Source: Cellulomonas sp. NS3 (GTDB taxonomy: Bacteria; Actinomycetota; Actinomycetes; Actinomycetales; Cellulomonadaceae). From it: 64,000 nt of DNA. The DNA lies in NCBI RefSeq assembly GCF_024757985.1, contig NZ_CP103289.1, positions 2,480,001 to 2,544,000 on the forward strand. The letters run 5' to 3'. The position numbers and the translations under genes were made by a program. This document shows positions 43,337 through 51,259 of the stretch, in pieces. How positions within the stretch are numbered: position 1 is the stretch's first letter; each line of letters begins with the position of its first letter. The notes under the pieces were generated by a model. It did not search any database. It was not told the origin of the DNA and was given only the letters and a program-made list of their open reading frames with translations.

Positions 43337-43600
43337 TCAGGCGCTCGCCTGCTGGGCCAGGTGGTCGCGCAGGTCCCGGATCCGGTCGTCCCGGAAGCCG
43401 TCCCAGGTGCCGATGGGGGTCACGACGACGGGCATCTGCAGCGCACCGATGGCGCGCAGCTCGTCCTCGAGGGTCTGGTTGCAGGTGGTGTCGATCGCCT
43501 CGTAGTCGATCCCTGCCTTCGTCAGGGCCCGGAACGTGCCCATGCAGGCGACGCAGCCCTTGCGGGTGTAGACGGTGACCTGCGCGGTGGTGGTTCCCAT
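43337..43600 (-). CDS. glutaredoxin-like protein
   Basis: 87 residues from ATG 43600. Thioredoxin fold with TVYTRKGCVACMGTFRALTK (CxxC active site CVAC), the cis-Pro in LQMPVVVTP, and GFRDDRIRDL. Resembles mycoredoxin/NrdH-type proteins but with CVAC. Set among unknown plasmid-type genes, where such redoxins are frequent. Confidence 0.85.
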   Translation of the reverse strand: MGTTTAQVTVYTRKGCVACMGTFRALTKAGIDYEAIDTTCNQTLEDELRAIGALQMPVVVTPIGTWDGFRDDRIRDLRDHLAQQASA

Positions 43601-44051
43601 GACGACTCCCCCTTGAGCTGCTGGCTGCTGCTTCGTGTGTGACCTGAGCTGCGGGAACGCGAGGTAGGCGCCCCACTTGGCCGTGCTGCCCTGCCGTCGC
43701 CGATCGTCTTTCGGCCCCTCCTGGCAATCGGAGATGAACGCCGGCATGAGCGGGTGGAGCGTCAACCCGCAGGGCGGGTGCGGCGGCGAGTTCGCACCGG
43801 GCTCAGTGAGCGCAGCGAACGCAGGTCGGGCTCGTCGCCGTGACCCGGCGGCCTCGGCCGCTTGCGTGCAGCCCGCGCCGGCGATCATGGAGAGCCAGGA
43901 GGAGCCACAGACGACCGCTTCTCCGACCGTCCGAGCCCGCCCCGGCGGGCGAGGTCCGTGTGCGGTGCGGTGCTCCGTCGCCGCGGCGCCGGAGCGAGTT
44001 CCACCCGCATATCGGCTTGTCGCCACGGTGCGCCCGGGCGAGGCTTCCCCG
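43601..44051. other. 450-bp gap between glutaredoxin and the next plus-strand gene
   Basis: No gene supported. The open frames in both directions have random-looking Arg/Ala/Pro products. Should contain divergent promoters for the glutaredoxin run and the 44052 gene. Confidence 0.4.
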
Positions 44052-44990: not shown

Positions 44991-45584
44991 TCAGAGCAGG
45001 GCGGGCAGGATCACCCCCAGCGCGTGCGGGACGGTGAACGCCTGGCGCGCGGCGTCGGGGTGCGGGGTGTCGCGGTCGGGGTAGGTCTCGACCTGGAAGG
45101 TCGCCATCCCGTGGTGGGCCTCGACCAGGACCCGCAGCCGCCCCCGTCCGGACGGCCACCGGACGCGCACGATGTGGTGCCCGTCCTCGGTGCGGGGGGC
45201 CAGCGGCCCGACCACCCCGGCCTGGCGCAGTTGGGCGGCCAGGGTGATCGCGAACTGCGCGGCCGGGTCGGTCTGCTCCCAGATGGTCAGGTCGGTGACG
45301 GACGGCTCGACGTACCGGTGCACGTCGACCCCGGACCCGTTGACGTGGGTCCCGGCCCACTGCCCGGACTGGACCTCATACGTCAGGCCCCACGGGAAGG
45401 ACGGGCGCGACTCGTCCCGGTCGATCGCCACGACCGGCGCGGCCAGGGCCAGGCAGGCGCCGCGGGCGGGGTCGGCGAACAGGGCGCGGACGTGGTCCCC
45501 GACGCGGTACGGGGGCCGCTGCGCCCGCTCGGACCCGCGTAGCTGGGCGGTGGTGGTGGGTTGGGTGTGGGCGATGATGCTCAC
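44991..45584 (-). CDS. hypothetical protein
   Basis: 197 residues from GTG 45584, GGAGG upstream. Beta-rich: PYRVGDHVRALFADPARGAC, FPWGLTYEVQSGQWAGTHVN, VRVRWPSGRGRLRVLVEAHH. Resembles large families of unknown plasmid/ICE proteins. Downstream of the DUF6573-like gene with a hairpin between them. Confidence 0.6.
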   Translation of the reverse strand: MSIIAHTQPTTTAQLRGSERAQRPPYRVGDHVRALFADPARGACLALAAPVVAIDRDESRPSFPWGLTYEVQSGQWAGTHVNGSGVDVHRYVEPSVTDLTIWEQTDPAAQFAITLAAQLRQAGVVGPLAPRTEDGHHIVRVRWPSGRGRLRVLVEAHHGMATFQVETYPDRDTPHPDAARQAFTVPHALGVILPALL

Positions 45585-45617
45585 GGGGAACCTCCAGGTT
45601 GGATGGGTGGTTTCCTC

Positions 45618-45721: not shown

Positions 45722-46126
45722 TCAGTCCTCGTGCGGGAGCCGGACCGTCAGGACGGCGTTCCCGTCGTCGCCGGGGCCGATGTGCACGTGCAAGGTCACG
45801 CGGTGCGGCTCGGTCGCGGCCGGGTCGTTCGGGACGCGCAGCACGTCGAACGCGATCCGGGTCTGCCCGAAGCCGATCCGCGCGGTGGCCGGGCGGGCCA
45901 TCCACAGCACGTCCCACAGCCGCCCGGCGACGTCCTGCAGGGCGCGGTTCGTCTCGGCCCACGCGACGGTCTCGGCCCACGCGGCGGCGGTCAATGCGAC
46001 GGGGAGCAGGTAGCCCGCCTCGCGGGCGGTGTCGGTGACGTCGACGAGCACCCCGTCGGCGATGGCGTCGGCGCGGGTGTAGGCGTGAATCACCTGGAAG
46101 GTCCCGGTGTCAGGGCTGTGGTTCAT
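45722..46126 (-). CDS. DUF6573-like protein
   Basis: 134 residues from ATG 46126. IHAYTRADAIADGVLVDVTD followed by AREAGYLLPVALTAAAWAET, and a C-terminal beta part HRVTLHVHIGPGDDGNAVLT. This matches my memory of a small protein family common on actinobacterial plasmids and integrative elements; function unknown. Its Shine-Dalgarno AAGGAG lies inside the duplicated leader at 46132-46454. Confidence 0.7.
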   Translation of the reverse strand: MNHSPDTGTFQVIHAYTRADAIADGVLVDVTDTAREAGYLLPVALTAAAWAETVAWAETNRALQDVAGRLWDVLWMARPATARIGFGQTRIAFDVLRVPNDPAATEPHRVTLHVHIGPGDDGNAVLTVRLPHED

Positions 46127-46131
46127 GGATC

Positions 46132-46454
46132 GGTCTCCTTGCGGGTGGTGGTGTCGGCTTGCCTGGTTGGCTGGCCGGTGAGCGCCCGTGTTCTTCGGGC
46201 CTCACCGGCAGGCGCGAGGTAGCACGACCGGCAGAGGCTCACGGCAAGGCCGTCCCGACCGGCCCCACTCCCCCACGGCTCGGTCCTTGGTGCGGAGCAC
46301 CGTCCCCCACCCGCTCAGGAACTCCGGTCGGGACGGCCTTGTCGTGAGGGACGGTCGTGCTACCGGCCACCGCAACCCGCCGGGCCACACCCAGCCACCA
46401 CCACGGCCGACCGCGCCGACGAGCTCGCGCGCCCGCAGGGCGCACCGCCAGGTG
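46132..46454 (-). repeat. duplicated leader, copy 1 (5' of the DUF6573-like gene)
   Basis: About 320 bp nearly identical to 48324-48644. Read in the direction of the gene it has (a) a long imperfect hairpin with arms 46325-46365 and 46218-46262, including 18 bp of perfect pairing (CCGGTCGGGACGGCCTTG with its complement) and 13 bp at the base (GGTAGCACGACCG); (b) a second hairpin 46174-46209 (GCCGGTGAG, GCCCG, loop, complement); (c) AAGGAG just before the ATG. Confidence 0.9.
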
Positions 46455-46492
46455 TCGGGGCTGCGATGCACCGGCCCCGCTACCGTGGCCAC

Positions 46493-46654
46493 ATGTTCGG
46501 GCTGGAGTGGGTCCTCGCGATGGTGCTGGGCTGGGCGATCCCGGTTGTGGCGCTTGCCTTCCTCGTCTACTGGGTCGTCCGCAAGGCGGTGCGCGACGGG
46601 ATCCGCGACGCCGCCGAGGACCGGCGTCCCACTGCGCCCTCGACGACCGACTGA
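46493..46654 (+). CDS. small single-span membrane protein
   Basis: 53 residues from ATG 46493: MFGLEWVLAMVLGWAIPVVA with a hydrophobic stretch to VYWVVRKAV and a charged C-terminus. Located on the plus strand between the two leader copies. Confidence 0.5.
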   Translation: MFGLEWVLAMVLGWAIPVVALAFLVYWVVRKAVRDGIRDAAEDRRPTAPSTTD

Positions 46655-46814
46655 GCCCCTGCCCGCCGCGTGCCAACCCGGTGAGCTCCCTCGGTGAGGT
46701 CGCTCCGGAGGTGGGGACCGGGGGTCGGGTCGGGCGGCTCGATGCCGCCCGGCCCGAGCAGCACCCCCGGGGGCTGCCGCCCCCACCCGCAGGCGGGGAC
46801 GGCAGCCGGTCGGG

Positions 46815-48317
46815 TCAGGCCGCGTCGTCCTCGGTCGGCTCGTCCTGCTCGTCGTCGGGCTCGGCGTCCTCGTGCTCGGGGTCCGAGTCGGCCACGGCGG
46901 CGGGCGGCTGGGGTTCGGTGATGACGATGTGCTCGACGTCGGACAGGCCGTAGCCCCAGGTGGCCAGGGCGGTGAAGTAGGCGCGGGACTCGGGGCTGGG
47001 GTTGCGCCAGGTGTGCACGCCGGTGCGGTGCTCGAGGGTGGCCAGAATCAGCACGAGCGCGATGTGCTGGGCGCGGGCCGGGCTCGCCTTGGCGATCGCG
47101 TCGGCCAGCGGGTCCGGCTGTCCCCAGCCGGTGGGCTGGGCGAGCCCGAGCAGGTCCCGGGCCAGGCGCAGGGCGTCGTCGTCCGGGCTGGTCCGGCGCG
47201 CCAGGGCCGCCGCGAGGAACGTCGCCCCGTCCTTCGGGGCGGTCTTGCGGGCGGCGAACGCGGTGAGCCAGTCCCGGCGGACTGTCTCGGCGGACCGCCA
47301 CGCCTTGTTGTTCGCGATCAGAGTCCGCCGCTCAGCCTTCTGCTCGGCGGTCATCGGCCCACCCGTGCTGCCGCTCGTGCCGGTGTCGGTGAACCGCTCG
47401 GCGTGCCCGTGCGCGGCCGGGTCCGCGCAGCCGTGCGTGACCCGGACCTCGTGGGACCAGTAGTCCAGTCGCAGCCACGCGACCCGGCCCGGGCACGCGG
47501 CGTGGGTCTTCTCGGTCAGTGCGGTGCGCGCCTGGTCGCCGGTCGCGCACAGGTGGTGCAGCGGCCGGGCCGTGGACCCCTCGCCGCGCTCGGGCTCGTC
47601 GATCACGGCGACGCCCTGCGTGGCGAGGTCGGCGGCGACGGCCGCGAGGGCTTCGGCGTCGCGGCGCTTGTCGCGCACCTTCTGCGCCAGGTGGTCGAAG
47701 GTGCCCGGCTCCTTGACCGCCGCGACGGTCAGGGCCTTGACGGCGTCGTCATCGCCGTCGAACTCCGCGATGACCGCTGCATGGTCCAGGGTCACGTCGT
47801 ATTTCGCGGTGACGGCGGCCGCGACCGGCGAGGCCGCGACCGTCAGGGCGGCGGTGACGCGGTCCTTCTTGGTGGCGGTGCGCTTGGCGATCTGCGCCGC
47901 CGAGAGCCCGAGCAGTGAGAGCTGCTGGTAGGCCGCGACCCGGTCCCGGTCGGTGACGCCACGGCGGTGGTCGTTCTCGGCCATCTGCTCGATGATCCGG
48001 CGCGCCTCGTCGGTGTCGCCGTCCACGACATACGCGGGGATCGTCGCCCGGCCGACCTCGACCGCCGCGAGGGTGCGCCGCTGCCCGGCACGCACGTGCA
48101 GCCCGTCCGCCTGGGCCTGGACCAGGACCGGGGTCAGCACCCCGAGCGTCTTGATCGAGGCGAGGAACTGCGGGTCCAGGTCCGCGTCGGTGCGGACGTT
48201 CGCCTCCAGCAGCAGCGACCGGGGGTCGACCTCGACGAGCCGCGCACCTTCCGGCGCGGGAGCGAGTGGGGTCGTCTCGTCTGTCTCAACCGCAGCAGTG
48301 GTAACAGTGGCATTCAT
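46815..48317 (-). CDS. ParB/RepB/Spo0J family partition-like protein
   Basis: 500 residues from ATG 48317. N-terminal ParB nuclease/CTPase-like domain (LVEVDPRSLLLEANVRTDAD, VLTPVLVQAQADGLHVRAGQ then RR, MAENDHRRGVTDRDRVAAYQ), and a KorB-like helix-turn-helix (LSLLGLSAAQIAKRTATKKD). The long C-terminal half is unrelated to chromosomal ParB, and the tail is very acidic. No parA is adjacent. Such orphan ParB proteins occur on actinobacterial plasmids and ICEs. Its leader is the second copy of the repeat. Confidence 0.88.
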   Translation of the reverse strand: MNATVTTAAVETDETTPLAPAPEGARLVEVDPRSLLLEANVRTDADLDPQFLASIKTLGVLTPVLVQAQADGLHVRAGQRRTLAAVEVGRATIPAYVVDGDTDEARRIIEQMAENDHRRGVTDRDRVAAYQQLSLLGLSAAQIAKRTATKKDRVTAALTVAASPVAAAVTAKYDVTLDHAAVIAEFDGDDDAVKALTVAAVKEPGTFDHLAQKVRDKRRDAEALAAVAADLATQGVAVIDEPERGEGSTARPLHHLCATGDQARTALTEKTHAACPGRVAWLRLDYWSHEVRVTHGCADPAAHGHAERFTDTGTSGSTGGPMTAEQKAERRTLIANNKAWRSAETVRRDWLTAFAARKTAPKDGATFLAAALARRTSPDDDALRLARDLLGLAQPTGWGQPDPLADAIAKASPARAQHIALVLILATLEHRTGVHTWRNPSPESRAYFTALATWGYGLSDVEHIVITEPQPPAAVADSDPEHEDAEPDDEQDEPTEDDAA

Positions 48318-48323
48318 GGTGTG

Positions 48324-48644
48324 GGTCTCCTTGCGGGTGGTGGTCTGGCCTGCCTGGTTGGCTGGCCGGTGAGCGCCCGTGTTCTTCGGGCCTCACCGGC
48401 AGGCGCGAGGTAGCACGCCCGGCAGAGGCTCGCGGCAAGGCCGTCCCGACCGGCCCCACTCCCCCACGGCTTGGTCCTTGGTGCGGAGCACCGTCCCCGA
48501 CCACCCCGCCAGCTCCGGTCGGGACGGCCTTGTCGTGAGGGACGGTCGTGCTACCGGCCACCGCAACCCGCCGGCCCCACCCAGCGACCGCCACGGGCGA
48601 CCGCGCCGACGAGCTCGCGCGCCCGCAGGGCCCACCGCCAGGTG
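48324..48644 (-). repeat. duplicated leader, copy 2 (5' of parB)
   Basis: Second copy of the 320-bp unit, with the same order: long hairpin (arms 48515-48555 and 48409-48453), second hairpin, and AAGGAG before the ATG of parB. Differences from copy 1 lie mostly in the loop and at the far end; the 18-bp core arms are identical. Confidence 0.9.
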
Positions 48645-48686
48645 CGGTGAACCGCGGTCTCCACCCGCTCGAGGTGAGGCGAGCGG

Positions 48687-48710
48687 CTAGGACGTGTCTC
48701 CTAACGGCCC
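48687..48710 (+). repeat. solo inverted-repeat-like end related to the IS5-type element
   Basis: CTAGGACGTGTCTCCTAACG matches the inward-reading right end of the IS at 50178-50159 (CTAGGGCGCGTCTCCCAACC) at 16 of 20 positions, better than the IS's own left end. It precedes the 48785 gene. Confidence 0.5.
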
Positions 48711-48784
48711 GAGGCGATGGGCTGAGCGAGCGACGTTCGGTGTGGGTCAGCGTCTGATGCAGGGCGAGGCGGCATGATCAGGCC

Positions 48785-49210
48785 ATGGGTCTGCTCACCG
48801 AGTACTTCGTCGCTTTGACGGACGATGCCGCCGCCTTGGTTCACGGGGGCTCGATCCCGCCGCACGCGGTGGACGGCGGTGGGATCGAGCCGGTCGTGCA
48901 TCTGGGGACGCTCGAGGAACTGCTGACGGGCAGGACGTTCGAGGAGGTTCTCGACGACGCACCGACGTCGCCGGTCGCGGACCGTAACGGAGGTGAAGAG
49001 CTCGTTCTCCGGATCACGGACGAGCTGGCCCGGGTCCTCGCCGAAGTGAGTGACAGCCGGCTTGAAGAGGTCGTCGTCCCCTGGTCCCAGACCGAAGAGC
49101 TGGAGGGCGCCGATCCCGCAGACCTGGCCACGTTCGCCCGTGAGCTCTCCGCACTCGCGCGCCAGGCACGCGCCGACGGAGGGCACGTGTACTGCTGGTT
49201 CAGCCTGTGA
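48785..49210 (+). CDS. hypothetical protein between IS ends
   Basis: 141 residues from ATG 48785. MGLLTEYFVALTDDAAALVH, THL-type alternating segments, an acidic helical middle (GGEELVLRITDELARVLAEV) and ends GGHVYCWFSL. Not recognised. The gene lies between an IS-end-like sequence at 48687 and the IS5-type left end at 49227. Confidence 0.65.
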   Translation: MGLLTEYFVALTDDAAALVHGGSIPPHAVDGGGIEPVVHLGTLEELLTGRTFEEVLDDAPTSPVADRNGGEELVLRITDELARVLAEVSDSRLEEVVVPWSQTEELEGADPADLATFARELSALARQARADGGHVYCWFSL

Positions 49211-49226
49211 CAGCCGCAGCGACTGG

Positions 49227-50135
49227 CTAGGGCCTCGCACCCGACGGTGCGCGGAGCCAGGCCAGAATCGCGGCCAGGACGGCGCGCCGCCGCGGTAGGT
49301 CAGGGCGAGCTTGTCGTAGCGGGTGGCGAGGCCGCGCCAGTGCTTGAGGGCGTTGAAGGACCGCTCGACGACGTTGCGGCCGCGGTAGGCGTCGGGGTCA
49401 TAGGTGACGGGCCGACCGCCGCGTGAGCCGCGCCTCTTGCGGTGTCCTTGCTGGTCGCGCGGTTCGGGGATGACCGCGACGATCCCACGACGGCGCAGCT
49501 CGGTGCGGATCGCCCGGGAGGAGTACGCCTTGTCCGCCAGCACCGAGTCCGGGCGCGTGCGCGGACGGCCCGGTCCGAGGCGCGGGACGCGGATCGCGTC
49601 CAGGACCGGCAGACACATCGGGGCATCGCCGCCCTGCCCCGGTCCGACCATGACGACCAGCGGGAGCCCTCGGCCGTCGACCGCGTGGTGGATCTTCGTG
49701 GACAGCCCGCCCCGGGACCGGCCGATCGCATGGTCAGCCGGCTCCGATAACTGATTCCTGTGATTCGCGCCTGCCCCCCGTGGTGCGGGGCAGGGTCGCG
49801 GCGTGCTGATGGGTCCGGTTGATCGTGGAGTCGATCGAAACCGCCCAGTCGATGTCACCGGCCGCGTCGGCCTGGGCGAGCAGCTCGGTCAGGACGTTGT
49901 CCCAGGTCCCGTCCCTGGAGAACCGGGCGTGTCGCTTCCAGACCGTCTGCCACGGCCCGAACTCCGCCGGCAGATCGCGCCAGGCGACCCCGGTCCGGTA
50001 CCGGTAGACGATGCCCTCGACCACCTGCCGGTGATCGCGAAACCGGCGTCCCGGCTTGCCCACGTCCAAGGGCAGCAGCGGAGCGATCCGCTCCCACTGA
50101 GCATCGGTCAACACCGCACGACGAGACACCCGCAC
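49227..50135 (-). pseudogene. IS5-type transposase in two frames, with a further 3' frameshift
   Basis: First frame 50135-49734: MRVSRRAVLTDAQWERIAPL, RFRDHRQVVEGIVYRYRTGV, IDSTINRTHQHAATLP. After a run of six G (near 49770-49765) the second frame carries ANHRNQLSEPADHAIGRSRG, LPLVVMVGPGQGGDAP, NVVERSFNALKHWRGLATRY. The switch is +1 (or -2) relative to the first frame; a two-frame layout is normal for the IS427 group. A second one-base shift near 49287 is needed to read AVLAAILAWLRAPSGARP and stop at 49227, so this copy may be inactive. Confidence 0.75.
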
Positions 50136-50178
50136 AGCATCCCGGCGACCGCAGCGGAGGTTGGGAGACGCGCCCTAG
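49227..50178 (-). mobile_element. IS5-family insertion sequence (IS427-like)
   Basis: About 950 bp. Right end inward CTAGGGCGCGTCTCCCAACC, left end inward CTAGGGCCTCGCACCCGACG (13 of 20 match). The transposase stop falls on the left CTAG when one base shift is allowed. The right end abuts the IS481-type element at 50180. Confidence 0.75.
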
Positions 50179-50179
50179 G

Positions 50180-51259
50180 TGTACTCGGCCAGGACGTTGG
50201 TGACGTGAGCGGTCGTTGACGACAGGAGAACCTCCGGCTGGGCTGTGGCTTGTCTAGGGCCCACTGCCATCCGGAGGTTCTCGTGTCCCACGCTAACGCT
50301 CGGCTGAACGTGCACGGTCGGCGCCTGTTGATCGCCCGAGTCGCGCAGGGACGCCCCGTGGCGCACGTGTGCGCCGAGCTGGGTGTCTCGCGTCAGACCG
50401 GCTACCGGTGGGTGCGTCGGTGGCGCGCCGAGGGGGACGCCGGACTGCGTGATCGCTCCAGCCGTCCCCGGCACAGCCCGACTCGCACCCGCCCGGAGGT
50501 CGAGTCGGCGATCTGCGCGTTACGCCTCAGTGAGCGCCGCGGGCCCGACCACCTCGGGCCGACGCTCGGGGTCGCGGCGCGGACGGTCTCGCGGGTCCTG
50601 CGCCGGCACGGTCTGCCACCGCTGCGCGACCTGGACCCGCTGACCGGGCAGGTGATCCGCGCGAGCAAGGCCACCGCCGTCCGCTACGAACGCGACCGCC
50701 CGGGCGAGCTGGTCCACGTCGACGTCGAGAAGCTCGGACGCATCCCCGACGGCGGCGGCTGGAAGGCATACGGACGGGTCGCCCGCGTCGCCGACCGGCA
50801 CAAGGCCGTCCCGATCGGTTTCGACTACGTGCACTCGATGGTCGACGACCACTCCCGCCTGGCCTACTCCGAGGTCCTGCCCGACGAGAAAGGGGCCACC
50901 TGCGCCGCCTTCGTGACCCGCGCCGCAACCTACTTCGCCGACCACGGCATCACCCGGATCGAGCGGATCATGACCGACAACGCCTGGGCCTACCGGTGGT
51001 CCCTGCGCGCGGTCGCCGCCGACCTCGGAGCCAAGCAGGTCTTCATCCGCCCTCACTGCCCCTGGCAGAACGGCAAGGTCGAGCGCTTGAACCGCACCCT
51101 GGCCACCGAGTGGGCCTACCGCCAGGTCTTCACCAGCAACGACCAACGCGCCGCAGCCCTTGCCCCCTGGCTCGAGCACTACAACACTCGCAGGCGCCAC
51201 AGCGCCCTCGGAGGACTACCGCCCATCAGCCGCCTGTCACCAACCTGACGGCGAGTACA
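50180..51259 (+). mobile_element. IS481-family insertion sequence
   Basis: About 1,080 bp, with inward ends TGTACTCGGCCAGGACGTTG (from 50180) and TGTACTCGCCGTCAGGTTGG (from 51259). Both contain GGTTGGTGAC-like or GTTGGTGACG segments. One complete transposase inside. A diverged 3' copy lies at 53620-53792. Confidence 0.85.
50283..51248 (+). CDS. IS481 family transposase
   Basis: 321 residues from GTG 50283 with GGAGG upstream. N-terminal helix-turn-helix (VAHVCAELGVSRQTGYRWVR), then the DDE integrase core: first D in GELVHVDVEKLGRI, second in ERIMTDNAWAYR, E in WQNGKVERLNRTLATEWAYR. Ends RRRHSALGGLPPISRLSPT. All motifs intact, so likely active. Confidence 0.93.
   Translation: MSHANARLNVHGRRLLIARVAQGRPVAHVCAELGVSRQTGYRWVRRWRAEGDAGLRDRSSRPRHSPTRTRPEVESAICALRLSERRGPDHLGPTLGVAARTVSRVLRRHGLPPLRDLDPLTGQVIRASKATAVRYERDRPGELVHVDVEKLGRIPDGGGWKAYGRVARVADRHKAVPIGFDYVHSMVDDHSRLAYSEVLPDEKGATCAAFVTRAATYFADHGITRIERIMTDNAWAYRWSLRAVAADLGAKQVFIRPHCPWQNGKVERLNRTLATEWAYRQVFTSNDQRAAALAPWLEHYNTRRRHSALGGLPPISRLSPT

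Follow-up and report, generated by a model that had tools for sequence, protein, structure and literature searches.

Repeated hairpin leaders at a Cellulomonas locus and on related plasmids as candidate Frpo-like single-stranded DNA promoters in Actinomycetota

Introduction

According to PMC11541004 and PMC9849209, Frpo elements fold on the plasmid strand that enters the recipient cell, are recognised by the host RNA polymerase and give rise to early expression of the leading genes. As described in PMC9849209, the F plasmid carries two such elements, Frpo1 and Frpo2, which are 92% identical and lie about 5 kb apart, its early leading genes have the transferred strand as their template, and early gene expression from incoming single strands occurs in living cells. 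A figure in PMC11541004, in which Frpo promoters are drawn as arrows according to the legend, includes the leading region from Streptomyces, and the arrows may include a Streptomyces one. On plasmids of the pLS20 family, the conserved sequences EGeRS1 and EGeRS2 are repeated before establishment genes or operons, and the sequence family varies between plasmids; in the account of PMC8708921, the authors argue against single-stranded DNA (ssDNA) promoters on the ground that the strand transferred is the non-template one. Here, we analyse a stretch of 64,000 nucleotides of Cellulomonas sp. NS3 (contig NZ_CP103289.1, positions 2,480,001 to 2,544,000; this whole stretch is referred to as the window and all positions are given in it) in which a leader with two hairpins is duplicated in front of a DUF6573 gene and a parB-like gene.

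To our knowledge, little has been established about how plasmids of phyla other than that of F get through the first minutes after entering a new cell. The leaders described here provide concrete, multi-copy candidates for ssDNA promoters in Actinomycetota, together with a strand test that separates folded DNA from folded RNA. We suggest that they probably are elements like Frpo or single-strand initiation (ssi) sites from the leading region of conjugative or mobilisable plasmids, and our best reading is that they represent new sequence families of the Frpo-like kind. A literature search gave no paper on DUF6573, and none of the titles listed names Frpo-like elements in Actinobacteria or Cellulomonas plasmids.

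Results

Both leaders are on the minus strand. Copy 1 (46132..46454) precedes the DUF6573 gene (45722..46126, minus strand; PF20213, E=9.5e-24) and copy 2 (48324..48644) the parB-like gene (46815..48317, minus strand; ParB_N, E=1.8e-5, at 25.2 bits slightly below the 26.3-bit Pfam cut-off), the protein of which has relatives on 279 plasmid records (tblastn). Aligned from 46132-46460, copy 1 is 94% identical to copy 2 over query positions 1-323, and a second comparison gave, in register, blocks of 231 nt at 94%, 72 nt at 93% and 28 nt at 89% identity. The copies are spaced 2.2 kb apart, and each extends for ~320 bp up to the start codon of its gene with the sequence AAGGAG kept in both. The long hairpin, P1 (46223..46366 in copy 1 and 48414..48557 in copy 2), has arms of 25 nt with 96% complementarity in copy 1 and 92% in copy 2 and an 18-bp perfect core; in copy 1 its interior, referred to below as type I, contains the conserved GGGGACGGTGCTCCGCACCAAGG. 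The compact hairpin, P2 (46173..46222 and 48364..48413), has 9+5 bp with a bulged G, is preceded in copy 1 by the conserved CTACCTCGCGCC, and its 50-nt core does not differ between the copies. As segments of 337 and 336 nt, the leaders fold with z-scores of -4.9 and -3.4. Thus, the duplicated leader, its AAGGAG site, the long hairpin with the 18-bp core and the second compact hairpin, all proposed in a first-pass annotation of this DNA, were confirmed. The same annotation had described sequence conservation in the stems, which needs correction: the two copies differ inside the hairpin arms, where the differences break pairs on the coding strand, and one of the resulting mispairs, an A·C, reads as a G·T wobble when the opposite strand is taken.

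A covariance model of the 50-nt P2 core (R1, built from 13 copies) was used to search for homologues, here referred to as family A. Both window copies of P2 score 77.9 bits with R1 and are among the 13 sequences from which it was built. In the window's own taxonomic family, R1 matched 22 of 221 genomes at E≤0.01. Strong matches (E<1e-4) come from 15 genomes, which hold 32 copies in total with a maximum of four per element, while seven genomes with weak matches (E 0.002-0.0075) were set aside as chance. Across the class, 8 of 394 genomes matched at E≤0.01, i.e. the window's own and seven weak ones (E 0.001-0.009), which were also taken as chance. Scanning the collection of named genomes with a pattern yielded 11 stretches, in Cellulomonas, Actinotalea, Sanguibacter and two metagenome-assembled genomes, and a search of viral contigs gave zero copies of family A. 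With the DNA of the whole leader, 55 of 99 relatives matched at E≤0.001, and the matches listed beyond the window's own genome are short pieces, the best of them 48 bases over P2 (in G044). Among plasmids, blastn at E≤0.01 matched six records (four from Burkholderia, one each from Cellulomonas and Streptomyces). The best of these, the Cellulomonas plasmid NZ_CP081863, matches in five places; its genes behind the leader core are parB, an ArdC-like gene, a hypothetical gene and a small one with DUF6573 next to it on the downstream side. Overall, the genes downstream of family A encode ParB-like, ArdC (PF08401), DUF4192 (PF13830) and DUF6573 proteins and several proteins without a Pfam family.

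In a typical family-A leader, the 5' arm of P1 (GGCCGGTA) and its 3' arm enclose an interior, of which there are two types; a TACCTCGYGCC-like segment and P2 follow. In 30 of the 32 copies, 19-47 nt separate the end of P2 from the next ATG, which has an open frame. Type I (A-I) comprises the two window copies and seven more and carries GGACGGTGCTCCGCACCA in the interior; type II (A-II) comprises the remaining copies, chiefly from Cellulomonas. The outer stem of P2 is nearly invariant. Covariation is found in the apical pairs: among 27 distinct rows, pair 28-46 has C-G 18 times and G-C 7 times, and pair 29-45 has G-C 20 times and C-G 6 times. Because these pairs covary, the P2 structure appears to be under selection. 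One family-A copy (L127:12355-12403, plus strand) has lost P1, with the P1 5' arm joined directly to P2, as if by deletion between GCCGGT repeats.

Several relatives that lack family A have repeated leaders of other kinds. These came from 24 neighbouring loci, each of which was compared with itself for internal repeats. Leader-like repeats of at least 200 bp are present in L069 (and its duplicate L075), L072, L073, L074, L079 and L081, and L070 and L071 have such repeats alongside family A. Family B, with about 205 nt plus flanks, has 2-5 copies per element, and the genes behind them are ParB-like, DUF4192, DUF6573 and others. In its 3' arm, read on the predicted transferred strand, TTG is present in 20 of 20 rows and is followed at a distance of 15-16 nt by GATGAT in 16 rows and by a close variant in the other 4, in a scan unchecked on the boxes of the F Frpo elements.

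A folded mRNA is expected to tolerate G·U and avoid A·C on the coding strand. In the 27 distinct rows of P2, the coding strand has 12 A·C and 0 G·U wobble-type cells, at two pair positions, one of which is the last stem pair. For the whole leaders, we chose consensus structures made of Watson-Crick pairs only, in which wobble cannot favour one strand. On the template strand, the ratio of G·T to A·C cells is 6:0 for A-II (18 distinct copies), 8:4 for A-I (9) and 9:2 for family B (20); counted as pairs, it is 6:0, 7:3 and 7:2, respectively. Folding energies point in the same direction, with the template strand lower in 25 of 30 family-A elements (duplicates included) and, among the distinct family-B elements, more stable in 20 of 20 with DNA parameters and 19 of 20 with RNA parameters. 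Two copies, L138:15094 (at a contig end) and L127:12355 (P1 lost), are excluded from the 30 family-A elements, and the P1-truncated L082:8043 additionally from the pair counts; for family B, 23 copies gave 20 distinct rows, with L075 excluded as a duplicate of L069.

Because composition accounts for part of the template excess, we set the difference between the strands against dinucleotide shuffles. Expressed as z (template excess), this difference averages +4.0 in A-II (18 of 18 positive), +1.5 in family B (18 of 20) and +0.6 in A-I (8 of 9), while 90 segments drawn at random from the same loci gave a mean of +0.14 with a standard deviation (sd) of 1.05 and 49 positive; 8 of the 90 overlap a leader copy. 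Mann-Whitney tests gave 4e-11 (A-II), 2e-5 (family B) and 0.05 (A-I), values that overstate the significance, the copies being kin. In the same shuffle test, Frpo1 and Frpo2 of F gave +4.4 and +1.2, and, as longer segments of 339 nt with RNA parameters, about +2 and +0.4. In A-II, the coding strand itself folds with a mean z of -1.9 and the template strand with -5.8. By contrast, the window copies fold equally well on the coding strand (z of -7.0 and -6.5 versus -6.1 and -6.1 on the template strand). The strand claim rests on the relatives, because the z of the difference for the window's own copies is 0.0 and 0.7; for these two copies alone, the strands are indistinguishable. Across the relatives, the strand that is kept foldable is the template strand, strongly in A-II, moderately in family B and hardly in A-I.

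Orientation relative to the mobilisation genes could be read in the 11 elements that have a relaxase gene or mobC on the same contig as the leaders. All 33 leader copies in these elements are on the mobC/relaxase strand and on the upstream side (on circular plasmids, by the shorter way). Four elements carry family A (G236, G249, G146 and G167; G230, a near copy of G236, was not counted) and seven family B (G008, G009, G155, G037, G116, P. sediminicola and C. cellulans ORNL-0100), and the gene order is common to them, hence they are not 11 independent trials. Before mobC lies an inverted repeat of the GAGCAAGCTATACACTTA type that resembles an origin of transfer (oriT). Ten distinct sequences of this kind, two of them nearly identical, all have GAGCAAGCTAT and in 9 of 10 cases GGCT on the right side. 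At the expected place before mobC or the relaxase gene, a relaxed left-flank pattern picked three further sites with different inverted repeats (G146, G116 and Mycetocola), which have GAGCAAG.TATA on the left in 3 of 3 and GCTTG on the right in one. According to PMC3772185, MOBP origins have a conserved nick region with the consensus YATCCTGY, located on the 3' side of the inverted repeat when the nicked strand is read. With this rule, the conserved left flank would place the nick between TATAGCTTG and the C that follows it, on the strand complementary to the leader genes. A nick on that strand would mean that the transferred strand enters the leader genes first and is their template. In this plasmid group, the oriT-like sites with GAGCAAG.TATA and then an inverted repeat before mobC or a relaxase gene include those at L068:30627, L069:36206, L134:18605, L162:24710, L167:844 and other places. 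The site string GCTATACACTTA turned up in four papers, and none of these is about plasmids by its title.

Discussion

Based on repeated homologues before same-strand genes, a covarying hairpin, the template preference in relatives and the co-orientation with mobilisation genes, we suggest that the leaders probably act as Frpo/ssi-like ssDNA elements, with promoter activity as a prediction. In this model, the plasmid would enter the recipient as ssDNA, with the template strand of the leader genes as the transferred strand. At each leader copy, this strand would fold into a long and a compact hairpin, and the host transcription machinery would start on this folded DNA, which would serve it for a time as double-stranded DNA, and read into the gene. 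As a result, ParB-like, ArdC, DUF6573 and other establishment proteins would be made ahead of second-strand synthesis. The nicked strand, the recognition by RNA polymerase and the early expression are the steps that we infer.

The leaders resemble Frpo/ssi elements in arrangement. In both cases, hairpin leaders of a few hundred bp are present in two or more near-identical copies (92% identical and about 5 kb apart in F versus 94% and 2.2 kb in the window) before leading-region genes, a ParB-family gene is among the leading genes, and the better-folding strand is the template. On F, a ParB-family gene lies behind ssb/Frpo2 and the leading genes are on the traM strand; the F oriT lies between the leading genes and traM. 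With the nick placed as above, a hairpin on the transferred strand before a leading-region gene is found in the relatives, while the window copies have no strand preference, and the transferred strand would be the template for all 33 copies in the 11 elements. By contrast, no F or IncF record is among the six plasmid matches of the blastn search. Because this search showed no sequence similarity to known Frpo/ssi elements, we do not class the leaders as homologues, although similarity is not needed for function. The present leaders also differ in that they are from Actinomycetota, are GC-rich, have no recognised canonical -35/-10 boxes, reach four copies per element and form two unrelated families.

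Several observations weigh against this reading. A scan of 46100-48800 on both strands found no sigma-70-like promoter, and the family-A hairpins hold no convincing -35/-10 pair, the best reaching 5-7 of 12 matches in a scan unchecked on the F Frpo boxes. The window's own copies and A-I as a whole show little or no strand preference, and when family-B segments were extended to 260-490 nt and folded with RNA parameters, only 16 of 25 had a positive template excess, which exceeded 2 sd in 5. The copies are related by descent, so that the counts are not independent events. Nine of the 24 loci compared with themselves (L076, L077, L078, L080, L086, L087, L089, L131 and L134) have no internal repeats. 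Four Microbacteriaceae plasmids with repeated leaders lack a template excess (7 of 18 gaps positive), and the ssDNA reading is therefore unsupported for these plasmids. The nick site is a prediction from the oriT flanks, and the ten oriT-like sequences were retrieved by a left-flank pattern, which makes their one-sided conservation partly a matter of construction. Finally, the genome that contains the window (one contig of 4.78 Mb) has no match to the relaxase families PF03432 and TrwC, other relaxase families being unsearched, and no oriT match at up to two mismatches.

The covariance-model check proposed in the first-pass annotation gave the expected result, i.e. further copies before parB-like, DUF6573 and other plasmid genes with compensatory changes in P2, and part of its proposal of a structured 5' leader controlling both genes stands: the element is structured and dispersed, and it probably puts several genes of one mobile element under joint control. 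The part that finds no support is the nature of the folded molecule. A structured 5' RNA leader, in which hairpins of the mRNA would be bound by a plasmid or host factor or sense a signal and the genes would be co-regulated, would account for the conservation of the window copies up to the Shine-Dalgarno sequence, the covariation in P2, the equally good folding of the window copies on the coding strand and the P2 loops, which are often A-rich on that strand. The structured 5' leaders in Rfam likewise have covarying hairpins upstream of Shine-Dalgarno sites; however, a scan of 45-50 kb of the window found zero Rfam families up to E=5, and the foldable strand here is not the RNA strand. Coding-strand folding is weak in A-II, and the tolerance of G·U and avoidance of A·C expected of a cis-regulatory RNA are seen on the coding strand neither in P2 nor in A-II (5 A·C, 0 G·U) nor in A-I (8 A·C, 4 G·U). 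Because the strand kept foldable across the relatives is the template strand, a folded mRNA leader is not supported, and we regard it as quite unlikely. A cis-antisense RNA made from the opposite strand would have the sequence of the best-folding strand. Yet near-identical antisense RNAs before different genes would be expected to cross-react, and the promoter scan, which covered both strands of 46100-48800, found no promoter for one, making this explanation highly improbable.

Two other explanations place the function of the leaders in DNA. EGeRS is the nearest parallel that does not involve ssDNA, in that repeated sequences that differ among plasmids stand before establishment genes; by analogy, the leaders would be a double-stranded operator or promoter cassette of an establishment regulon, with inverted repeats that bind a regulator. 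The multi-copy conserved sequences upstream of the pLS20 establishment genes (PMC8708921), the variation of leader families between elements, as expected of regulator-specific operators, and the Microbacteriaceae leaders without strand preference all agree with such a cassette. However, a duplex operator predicts strand symmetry, while A-II and family B have more G·T than A·C on one strand and a strand-specific folding excess, and the transferred strand, which is the non-template on pLS20, is here predicted to be the template. We therefore consider the duplex cassette unlikely. Alternatively, the leaders could be single-strand initiation sites that chiefly prime the complementary strand, with gene expression as a secondary effect. 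Such sites would have an identical folded signature on the transferred strand, and Masai and Arai 1997, a reference of PMC11541004, describe Frpo in their title as both promoter and primer source. The position of P2 shortly before an ATG with an open frame in nearly all copies and the presence of up to four copies per element, which exceeds the need for priming, argue against this explanation, which we find very unlikely. As for the idea, also raised in the first-pass annotation, of a mobile intergenic unit that brings a promoter, the promoter-bringing half comes nearer to the Frpo/ssi-like reading, but transposition, as in an element resembling a miniature inverted-repeat transposable element, was set aside given the single orientation of the copies before genes. 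Integron-like attC sites, which form bottom-strand hairpins, were also considered and set aside, without a search for an integrase.

The window locus looks like an integrated, chromosomal remnant of a leading region, because it has a plasmid gene order (ParB-like, DUF6573, NrdH-like), no match to the two relaxase families or to oriT, and a neighbouring transposase gene. The window copies may no longer be used there. Downstream of the DUF6573 gene on the minus strand, a partly degenerate family-B leader (43700..43904, minus strand; 3 mismatches to the 25-nt core, with the 5' arm 178 nt upstream) precedes a glutaredoxin (NrdH-like) coding region (43337..43642, minus strand; PF00462, E=9.9e-8), and the remnant thus holds both leader families. 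The product of 44991-45602 (minus strand), which has no Pfam family, resembles by eye the protein behind the family-A leader of L070 and L071 (YQVGDHVSALYLDPARGTCLA). Beyond the parB side, 48701-51248 contains transposase genes, including an IS481-type gene at 50250-51248; other open reading frames there presumably represent a split IS5-type transposase, and 49300-49731 has no Pfam match.

More tentatively, and as a possibility rather than an expectation, Actinomycetota plasmids (from relatives of Cellulomonas, Actinotalea and Cellulosimicrobium, perhaps also one from Pseudonocardia) may have ssDNA promoters of their own that are so far undescribed. These would form at least two families of unrelated sequence, A and B, and would stand in 2-5 copies before ParB-like, ArdC, SSB, NrdH, DUF6573 and DUF4192 genes; wobble pairs on one strand would then mark the folding strand and could be used to find such elements in any genome. 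The leaders also point to DUF6573, DUF4192, DUF3560 and the ParB-like protein as products of probable early genes, with possible roles in counter-defence or establishment.

Repeated leaders are also present on five plasmids that are more distant, the four Microbacteriaceae ones (Mycetocola, Microbacterium, Cryobacterium and Curtobacterium) and one of Pseudonocardia, where the genes behind them encode ParB-like, DprA, SSB, glutaredoxin or unknown proteins. On the Pseudonocardia plasmid, the template preference is positive in 5 of 7 gaps and reaches 6.1 before SSB. The Mycetocola and Cryobacterium leaders resemble family B by eye, and a wider leader superfamily is possible on the basis of such sequence features. 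By eye, leaders of the Microbacteriaceae loci L162, L164 and L166 have, like family B, a base stem that is followed by an A-rich run and C.GTTG, and the F Frpo elements have a comparable A-rich run after the stem base. Related plasmids that have other leaders contain, within the same clusters, genes for SSB, a methyltransferase, ArdC and NrdH.

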